A DNA stretch of 64,000 nt, taken from Propionispora sp. 2/2-37 (lineage in GTDB: Bacteria; Bacillota; Negativicutes; Propionisporales; Propionisporaceae). The notes beneath the pieces were generated by a model. It was given only the letters and a program-made list of their open reading frames with translations. It had not been told where the DNA came from and did no database searches. Shown here one piece after another: positions 35-40,669 of this stretch. The stretch is taken from the NCBI RefSeq assembly GCF_001298735.1, contig NZ_CYSP01000010.1, forward strand, positions 1-64,000, given 5' to 3'. Position 1 is the first letter of the stretch. Every line of letters begins with the position of its first letter. Position numbers and translations under genes: made by a program.

Positions 35-101
35 GCGTTCGGTAGAAAAAATGTTATGTATTATGCCGCTGTCTGGGTTGAGCATGGGAGGAATATTTAT
101 T

Positions 102-37934: not shown

Positions 37935-38969
37935 ATGAAAGTTAGAACACAGCAGCGCTGTTTGATATTAGCGCTGGAAACCAGTTGCGATGAGACATCC
38001 GCAGCCGTCATTGCCGATGGACGCACGGTTTTGTCCAATATTATTTCCTCACAAATTTCCGTTCATCAAAAATTTGGCGGTGTTGTGCCGGAAATCGCGT
38101 CGCGCAAGCACATTGAAAATGTTATTGGAGTGGTGGATGAAGCATTGCATACCGCCGGTGCTGTCTTACAGGATATGGCTGCCATCGGGGTTACTTATGG
38201 ACCGGGATTGGTCGGGGCACTTTTAGTCGGAGTGTCGGCCGCCAAGGCTCTGGCCTTTGCCGCCGATTTGCCGTTAGTAGGGGTAAATCATCTGGAAGGG
38301 CATATGTTTGCTAATTTTTTGGCTCATCCAGAGCTGCAGCCGCCTTTTGTTTCCTTGGTGGTATCCGGGGGACATACCTCCCTGGTTCATGTCCGTGAGT
38401 ATAATTCATTTGCTTTATTGGGCCAAACAAGAGATGATGCCGCCGGAGAAGCTTTTGACAAGATCGCCAGGGTAATGAAATTACCCTATCCGGGCGGCCC
38501 GCACATTGATCGATTGGCTAAGACTGGTAATCCACATGCCTTTCCTTTCCCTAGAGCGCTTACCGGCGAAAATAGTTTTGAATTTAGCTTTAGCGGCCTA
38601 AAGTCAGCAGTTGTTAATTTTTTGCACAATGCCGAACAACGCGGTGAGACAGTTCAAGCTGCTGACATTGCTGCCAGTTTTCAGGCTGCAGTTGTTGATG
38701 TCCTAACGGAAAAAACGGTCCGGGCGGCTCAAAATAATCAGGTGGACCAGGTTGTCCTTGCCGGAGGGGTAGCGGCCAATAGCTATCTGCAACGGGAACT
38801 GGAAGGGCGGTGCCGGCAGGCAGGAATTAAGCTGTATTTTCCTCCGCCAATACTTTGTACCGACAATGCAGCCATGATTGCCTCCCGGGCCTATTACCAA
38901 TACCTGGCCGGTGATCTGGCTGATTTACATCTTAATGCGGTTCCGGCACTACAGTTGGGGACCAAATAG
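37935..38969 (+). CDS. tsaD: tRNA N6-adenosine threonylcarbamoyltransferase TsaD
   Basis: Catalyses transfer of the threonylcarbamoyl group to adenosine 37 of ANN-decoding tRNAs. The metal-binding HLEGH (residues about 118-122), the ALETSCDETSAA N-terminus, VVSGGHTSLV, and FPFPRALTGE are clear. 344 residues, full length. GGGGGAGT precedes the ATG. A 176-base gap separates it from rimI and contains a short hairpin GACCAC/GTGGTC at 37764-37779. Confidence 0.96.
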   Translation: MKVRTQQRCLILALETSCDETSAAVIADGRTVLSNIISSQISVHQKFGGVVPEIASRKHIENVIGVVDEALHTAGAVLQDMAAIGVTYGPGLVGALLVGVSAAKALAFAADLPLVGVNHLEGHMFANFLAHPELQPPFVSLVVSGGHTSLVHVREYNSFALLGQTRDDAAGEAFDKIARVMKLPYPGGPHIDRLAKTGNPHAFPFPRALTGENSFEFSFSGLKSAVVNFLHNAEQRGETVQAADIAASFQAAVVDVLTEKTVRAAQNNQVDQVVLAGGVAANSYLQRELEGRCRQAGIKLYFPPPILCTDNAAMIASRAYYQYLAGDLADLHLNAVPALQLGTK

Positions 38970-39010: not shown

Positions 39011-39093
39011 TGTGGATAGTGTGAATAAATAATAAAGAAATAATTATTTATCAGGAATTTCCCTGTGGATAGAATTGTGGATTGTGTGGATAA
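39011..39093 (-). promoter_or_regulatory. Cluster of DnaA boxes downstream of tsaD
   Basis: Five 9-mers in one orientation match the DnaA box TTATCCACA when read on the minus strand with at most one or two changes: TGTGGATAG (39011), TGTGAATAA (39020), TGTGGATAG (39064), TGTGGATTG (39076) and the perfect TGTGGATAA (39085). A weaker TCTGGATAG is at 39108. The stretch 39028-39051 between them is AT-rich. It is not next to dnaA or dnaN, so it is more likely a DnaA titration or regulatory site than oriC. Confidence 0.7.
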
Positions 39094-39186
39094 CTTCGGG
39101 GATAATGTCTGGATAGCTGTTTTGACGGTGAGTTGGTGATAAAAGTATGAGAATGTGTTATTTTAACAATTGTTATAAAAGGAATT

Positions 39187-39214
39187 TTTACGTCTTCAGT
39201 AGAATAACTATAAT
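39187..39214 (+). promoter_or_regulatory. Sigma-A promoter for the HisKA_2 kinase/ANTAR operon
   Basis: TTTACG, 16 bases, TATAAT. It lies 70-100 bases past the DnaA boxes, so those boxes could influence it. Confidence 0.5.
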
Positions 39215-39244: not shown

Positions 39245-40669
39245 ATGAGTGTTGCTGGAGACATATGCAGGAAAATAAGTGGATTGCAGTCCGCGCAGAT
39301 TGAGCTATTAGAAAACATAACGGTGAATTTGGGCATTGTATCTGATTTAGCGCATGCACAAGTCACTGTATATGCCAGAGCCCGTGATGAAAATTTTGTA
39401 GTTATTTTAGCACAGGTAAAGCCACATACTAGCTTTATACAGCGAAAACCGAGTTTATTGGGTTCTACTCTTCCGATTGCCGAAGAACCACTTATTTTTC
39501 GCACTTTTGTCTCCGGTGAATCCATTTGCGGTCAGCGTGAATGGGCATTGGGGATGTGGATGGAAATGTGGACCTATCCGGTTTTGGATAATGAGGGCAA
39601 TATCATTGCTGTCATTAGTTTTGAATCGAATTCCGATGAGGTCCGGGCTGAAGGACACAGCATTCTGGTAGAAAGTGCGTATATGCTGCAATTAATTTTG
39701 CGTGGCGTATCTAATCGTAAACTTTTTCGGCCTCTTTCGGCAAGTGACGGTATTTTAATCATCGATGAAATGGGGCAGATCATTTTTGCTAATGCGGCAG
39801 CTATCAGTATATACAAAGTATTGGGTGTAAGCCATATTGTCGGCCGGCGTTTTTATGATCGGCATGTGGATATGCGGCTGGTGCAAAAGGCAATTCGCAG
39901 CAAGGAACCGAGTGAAGTGGAAATCGAAGCCGGCGGAATGACATTGGTACAGCGTGTCATTCCCATTGTCAATGATACAGGGCAATTAATGAGAGTGGTT
40001 GTCATTGTTGCCAATGTCACGGAAATCAAGAAGAAGGAAAAGGAATTATCCATAAAGGCGGCTGTCATCCAGGAGATTCATCATCGGGTAAAGAATAATT
40101 TGCAAACCATTGCTAGCCTGCTTAGATTACAGGCGCGCCGTACCAAATCGCAGCCGGTCAAGGCAGCCTTAAGGGAAAGTGTGAACCGTATCCTCAGCAT
40201 TTCTGTGGTGCATGAATTTTTGTCGCAACAGGATGCCGAATTTATTGATGTGGCTGAAGTGGCCAGGAATATACTGGATATGGTTATTCAAAATATGCTG
40301 GAACCGGATTTTAATCTGCAGACTATTTTCAACGGCAATACGGTGATACTGGCTTCGGAAAAAGCCAGCAGTCTGGCATTAGTGATTAATGAACTCATTC
40401 AAAATTCTATTGAGCATGGCTTTACCGGCCGCAGAGAAGGCGTAATCGGTGTGGATATAGCCACTTTAGAGGCTACCTACCAGATTGAAATATATGATAA
40501 CGGGATTGGTTTACCACCTGATTTTAATGTGCAAACGTCCAATAGTCTGGGCTTGCAAATTGTACGGACTTTGATTGAAGAAGATCTTGGCGGTAATTTC
40601 CGGTTATATAGTGAACAGGGTACTCATGCTTGTATTACAATTCCCCGTGAGGTGGAGGGAGGGAAATAA
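39245..40669 (+). CDS. Cytosolic sensor histidine kinase (HisKA_2 type)
   Basis: About 474 residues with no membrane segment. An N-terminal sensor region of roughly 150 residues is followed by a PAS-like domain (about 165-265), then the HisKA_2 box EIHHRVKNNLQTIASLL and a HATPase (NELIQNSIEHG, DNGIGLPPDF, LGLQIVRTL). The layout matches kinases that phosphorylate ANTAR regulators, such as PdtaS, and the next gene is such a regulator two bases later. GGAGGG at 39227 allows either TTG 39236 or ATG 39245 as start. Confidence 0.85.
   Translation: MSVAGDICRKISGLQSAQIELLENITVNLGIVSDLAHAQVTVYARARDENFVVILAQVKPHTSFIQRKPSLLGSTLPIAEEPLIFRTFVSGESICGQREWALGMWMEMWTYPVLDNEGNIIAVISFESNSDEVRAEGHSILVESAYMLQLILRGVSNRKLFRPLSASDGILIIDEMGQIIFANAAAISIYKVLGVSHIVGRRFYDRHVDMRLVQKAIRSKEPSEVEIEAGGMTLVQRVIPIVNDTGQLMRVVVIVANVTEIKKKEKELSIKAAVIQEIHHRVKNNLQTIASLLRLQARRTKSQPVKAALRESVNRILSISVVHEFLSQQDAEFIDVAEVARNILDMVIQNMLEPDFNLQTIFNGNTVILASEKASSLALVINELIQNSIEHGFTGRREGVIGVDIATLEATYQIEIYDNGIGLPPDFNVQTSNSLGLQIVRTLIEEDLGGNFRLYSEQGTHACITIPREVEGGK

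Follow-up and report, generated by a model that had tools for sequence, protein, structure and literature searches.

A directional array of DnaA boxes at the 3′ end of tsaD recurs across a large part of the Bacillota and is probably an ancient replication brake

Directly 3′ of tsaD in Propionispora sp. 2/2-37 there is an array of seven DnaA boxes, located at positions 39011–39116 of the window (the whole stretch of 64,000 nucleotides that was analysed). The boxes have zero to two mismatches and lie on the minus strand only. The array recurs at this location in much of the Bacillota, and is probably an ancient replication brake and not a product of chance. That dozens of families should have one cluster with the same spacing and orientation at one location indicates selection on its geometry. 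With moderate confidence we interpret it as an element external to oriC, already possessed by an early ancestor of the Bacillota, and as the orthologue of the gcp/ydiF cluster of Bacillus subtilis, limiting initiation through ATP-DnaA; no binding or initiation data were obtained here. The features of the region are as follows, with mismatches counted against TTATCCACA on the minus strand.

37935–38969, plus strand: tsaD (t6A synthesis), with the array anchored to its 3′ end
39011–39019, minus strand: DnaA box B1, CTATCCACA, one mismatch; opens a head-to-tail pair
39020–39028, minus strand: DnaA box B2, TTATTCACA, one mismatch; abuts B1, 9 bp start to start
39029–39063, no strand: spacer between B2 and B3, 35 bp, 80% A+T in the window
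39064–39072, minus strand: DnaA box B3, CTATCCACA, one mismatch; 44 bp from B2
39076–39084, minus strand: DnaA box B4, CAATCCACA, two mismatches; 12 bp from B3
39085–39093, minus strand: DnaA box B5, TTATCCACA, perfect match; 9 bp from B4
39097–39105, minus strand: weak box B6, TTATCCCCG, two mismatches; 12 bp from B5
39108–39116, minus strand: weak box B7, CTATCCAGA, two mismatches
39187–39214, plus strand: promoter-like site of the downstream operon, a consensus match only, outside the box array
39245–40669, plus strand: GAF_PdtaS/PAS/HisKA_2 histidine kinase, the next gene downstream, outside the element

Starting from the upstream side, tsaD is the final gene of the order thiL-tsaE-tsaB-rimI-tsaD, and the first box is located 41 bp past its stop codon. 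The first-pass annotation of this DNA had described five boxes in 83 bases with an A+T-rich stretch between them and a single weaker box beyond. The five boxes and the A+T-rich stretch (the 35-base spacer) are confirmed, while the weaker boxes number two, B6 and B7. A further very weak box lies at 39134, and GGGGATAA is found again near the position of B6 in several relatives. Beyond the kinase the strand continues into an ANTAR response regulator, and then groES-groEL. The gap between tsaD and the kinase has neither a match in Rfam nor a hairpin resembling a terminator, and an RNA element was rejected on that basis.

The comparison was confined to the Bacillota, with the class of the window taken as Negativicutes. 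It comprised the window plus 60 other genomes of the class (61 in all), 74 other Bacillota families with one genome apiece, and 80 Bacillaceae chosen as named records, for which the loci were found with a Bacillus TsaD sequence used only as bait. A cluster was defined as a 130-bp span, lying no more than 700 bp 3′ of tsaD, that holds at least four boxes differing from TTATNCACA at one position at most. Such clusters are present in 24 of the 61 class genomes, in 42 of the 74 other families and in 76 of the 80 Bacillaceae. Elsewhere in these loci such a cluster occurs in one, four and four cases respectively. The four from the other families are still 3′ of tsaD and on the same strand, displaced by 1.6–2.7 kb, and seem to have been separated from tsaD by gene insertions. 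Among the named carriers are B. spizizenii, B. velezensis, B. pumilus and B. halotolerans, together with many species of Metabacillus, Cytobacillus and Neobacillus. The inference made from the window alone, that this is a conserved site rather than a chance one, is supported by this distribution across class and phylum, and the proposed refutation, an absence of the boxes from relatives, failed.

Unbiased pattern searches extend the distribution. A three-box pattern run on another 60 phylum genomes has four matches outside the class, all of them directly 3′ of tsaD with differing genes downstream. The strict B1-B2-gap-B3 pattern is matched in 56 of 399 phylum genomes (63 matches in all), while the reversed pattern has no match in the same 399. 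At least 29 of the 63 matches (in 27 genomes) are directly 3′ of tsaD and a further 2–3 are displaced from it; nine are unassessed, and one belongs to a prophage-like region in the genome of the window itself. Some of the neighbours of these matches were named by sequence appearance and not by Pfam. In the literature found by search, which did not cover Okumura 2012, there was no report of conservation across the phylum or of a spacing rule. The cluster type is already known, and it is the breadth, the fixed grammar and the testable variants that appear to be new.

The shared layout is box-9-box-(42–44)-box-12-box-9-box in a common orientation. Distances between antisense boxes peak at 9, 12, 21, 42–44, 52–54 and 63–65 for the class and the other families alike, with additional peaks at 22 and 31 in the Bacillaceae. 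Near tsaD there are 384 antisense boxes against 46 sense boxes. The loci were scored with a five-box template, B1-9-B2-(41..45)-B3-12-B4-9-B5, having a maximum of 42 and a threshold of 33. The window array scores 39.9. Scores of at least 33 are found near tsaD in 22 of the 61 class genomes, 23 of the 74 other families and 37 of the 80 Bacillaceae, and in two of 3742 control chunks of 760 bases, both of which prove to be displaced tsaD elements (L131 and L190). Among the relatives the length of the spacer between B2 and B3 is kept (42–44 bp start to start), but its sequence is not.

The presence of the element is scattered. A TsaD tree with 107 rows places at least 10 changes in presence on well-supported branches, and 30 by parsimony. 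Both congeners (G009 and G028) lack the element, as does a family member from the sister genus (G038). In the congeners the gap between tsaD and the kinase has no DnaA boxes, and that of the family member has one; the same kinase gene follows in each (L033, L034 and L035). The scattered presence, together with the absence from congeners, shows the element to be dispensable. While the tree alone cannot decide between them, loss is more likely than gain, since the shared position, strand and spacing make repeated loss from a common ancestor likelier than repeated gain. Where a single long contig carries both dnaA and tsaD (39 genomes), tsaD is nearer oriC if the element is present: its median distance as a fraction of the chromosome arm is 0.42 with the element and 0.60 without (p = 0.012, uncorrected for relatedness).

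The precedent for the array comes from B. subtilis, where the gcp (tsaD)/ydiF region, with 10 boxes in 300 bp, is the fourth-strongest of 269 DnaA-binding regions in vitro (Smith & Grossman 2015; PMC4447404), and the precedent at gcp that the first-pass annotation named is correct. The region binds ATP-DnaA with a Kd of 0.15 µM and, at 55 nM, prefers this form 16-fold; it is among eight regions bound by DnaA in vivo; the study had too few regions to define the basis of the preference for ATP-DnaA (PMC4447404). Reviews that cite Okumura 2012 state that deletion of six clusters outside oriC led to earlier initiation (PMC5295017, PMC13220808). Like the B. subtilis cluster (DBC), the window array comprises many boxes at the 3′ end of tsaD with no dnaA adjacent. 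The gcp cluster is reportedly among the six of Okumura 2012.

The window array has several boxes within about 100–200 bp outside oriC and is located 3′ of tsaD, as expected for a cluster of the B. subtilis gcp type. Its orientation and spacing also correspond, as judged from species of the subtilis group and not from B. subtilis 168 itself. B. spizizenii, B. inaquosorum and other species of this group have a cluster at tsaD with the 9 + 42–43 spacing; the boxes are at +132, +141 and +184 after tsaD in B. spizizenii, and at +41, +50 and +94 in the window. There are differences. The Bacillus cluster is placed between two convergent 3′ ends, whereas the window array lies between co-directional genes, and the Bacillus cluster has extra boxes 22–31 bp upstream. 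DnaA binding is proven for the B. subtilis cluster only.

The identity of the array as an orthologue of this cluster, and its conservation, are supported by the comparisons; the conserved geometry and the B. subtilis orthologue are the grounds for inferring that it limits initiation through an ordered ATP-DnaA complex. In line with this reading, the DnaA of this genome contains GRDHTTVIHA, and its oriC carries TTATCCACA boxes. Distances close to multiples of 10.5 bp suggest that the boxes are placed on one face of the helix, and those of 9, 12, 21, 42–44 and 63–65 would set B2, B3 and B5 near whole helical turns. On boxes so phased and all pointing in one direction, DnaA, mainly in its ATP form, would be expected to assemble cooperatively into a single ordered complex along one side of the DNA. 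The element would then withhold ATP-DnaA from oriC, and on passage of the fork its copy number would double. The retention of ATP-DnaA combined with the doubling would be predicted to limit or delay initiation. The natural variants (the B1-B2 pair, the 42–44 bp spacing and the B3-B5 triple) allow tests of the preference for ATP-DnaA.

A broader proposal can be made only tentatively, and may well be incorrect. The tsaD element would be the counterpart in the Bacillota of datA, a phylum-wide control site of fixed geometry whose ATP-DnaA complex senses or resets the nucleotide state of DnaA and is not a mere sink. For B. subtilis a review describes it as unknown whether that state is adjusted by anything at all, and the clusters are treated as generic sinks.

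The simplest alternative is passive titration, in which any set of high-affinity boxes would suffice and the fixed spacing reflects descent alone. We find this possible, if rather doubtful. A review describes the B. subtilis data in terms of sensitivity to unbound DnaA, and timing was partly rescued by one cluster restored at various places. By the same account no single cluster is critical in B. subtilis, and a strong phenotype is seen only when all six are gone. Yet the spacer has diverged in sequence while its length is held at 42–44 bp across dozens of families, and a pure sink requires neither phased spacing nor the single orientation of the boxes.

Alternatively the ordered complex might act catalytically as datA does, stimulating ATP hydrolysis by DnaA. 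E. coli datA is likewise a non-origin cluster of DnaA boxes that limits initiation; the ordered multi-box architecture, the location outside oriC and the strong preference of the B. subtilis orthologue for ATP-DnaA (PMC4447404) would all be consistent with such a site. However, datA requires IHF, has its boxes in other positions and is located between yjeV and queG. Neither datA nor DARS nor any activity of the datA type is known from B. subtilis, and IHF is reported to be absent from it (PMC5295017, PMC13220808). We therefore think a catalytic site unlikely.

Under local control of transcription, bound DnaA would regulate either the kinase/ANTAR operon, an alternative that the first-pass annotation had raised, or tsaD, in step with replication. 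In the window the PdtaS-type kinase starts about 130 bp after the end of the array. Most of the other strong DnaA sites of B. subtilis are at promoters under DnaA control (PMC4447404). Those at sda/yqeG, ywlC, ywcI and yydA are, like the tsaD element, high-affinity regions outside oriC, but they are located at DnaA-regulated promoters, whereas no promoter consistently accompanies the tsaD element. The neighbouring gene differs between lineages. The element is present at 74 of 76 loci where a convergent ABC-F gene comes next, at 21 of 51 with a sensor kinase (leaving 30 kinase-linked loci without it), at 13 of 16 with a radical SAM gene, at 8 of 10 with Lgt, at 5 of 5 with a murC-like ligase, and next to others; apart from the kinase these identities were read from sequence appearance. 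Since the next gene is variable, and in the Bacillaceae is convergent with no promoter in the gap, no shared promoter can explain the conservation. Moreover, the only good promoter-like site in the gap of the window is not within the boxes but 70 bases past the last of them. The boxes are thus not at a conserved promoter, and the element tracks the 3′ end of tsaD. Regulation of a promoter or operon was rejected as the conserved role on both grounds, and control of the kinase/ANTAR operon in particular is disfavoured by the existence of at least four other kinds of neighbour. We consider local transcription control quite unlikely.

A silent or back-up origin is very improbable. In the window the boxes adjoin an A+T-rich spacer, but among the relatives the A+T fraction of the spacer averages 0.61, against 0.53 over the locus, which is no strong enrichment, and the spacer was rejected as a conserved unwinding element; only the spacer was profiled, and not the outer flanks. 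There is no dnaA, dnaN or rpmH adjacent to the array; dnaA is on contig C7 and the window on C10, in agreement with the first-pass annotation that no origin gene is near. Occurrence in the whole genome (4.12 Mb) was assessed by pattern searches for triples of TGTGNATW boxes whose gaps do not exceed 28–30 bases; a stricter pattern of three TGTGNATA boxes misses the window array, where one box reads TGTGGATTG, and so the looser one was used. Triples occur in two places only, oriC (between dnaA and rpmH) and the tsaD array, and the reversed pattern used as control has no match in the genome. Equally dense clusters elsewhere would have refuted the proposal, and by this pattern there are none besides oriC. 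While both are triple-box clusters, oriC lacks the head-to-tail 9-bp pair followed by 42–44 bp and has a template score of 28.1 against 39.9. The five-box template is absent from the oriC regions of 20 genomes (best score 32.1, most 24–30), and on that basis a copy of oriC was rejected. A study in B. subtilis considered it unlikely that an alternative origin is used.

Chance clustering has practically no support: DnaA boxes are short and the window has 35 sites with no more than one mismatch, but the array has seven same-strand boxes within 100 bases, each with up to two mismatches, where 60 simulated 64-kb windows reached a maximum of five (mostly three), and four boxes with up to one mismatch where the same simulations reached three, and the idea is refuted by the conservation tests, with the genome-wide search also against it.

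Some further arrays were observed. The window's own genome has a second B1-9-B2-43-B3 array (L364; contig C16, 30972–31031), in the prophage-like region beside a ParB_N/DNA-methylase gene. Titration of DnaA is one possible role for it, and replication of the phage itself another. About 12 of the 63 strict matches are in a comFC / zinc-ribbon / flgN / hpf neighbourhood in several Bacillota families (L365, L368, L373, L374, L376, L377, L380 and L382), and four, from one family, are just upstream of an RNase J gene (L366, L369, L370 and L371). DnaA control sites occur near t6A genes in several settings: tsaD here, ywlC (which we take to be TsaC) in B. subtilis, and E. coli datA at about 2.7 kb from tsaE. 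This may be a coincidence. Lastly, three class members without the tsaD element have triple-box clusters away from dnaA (G029:C1:949121–949256, G050:C1:1862653–1862787 and G005:C1:3589090–3589130), and these might be replacements for it.
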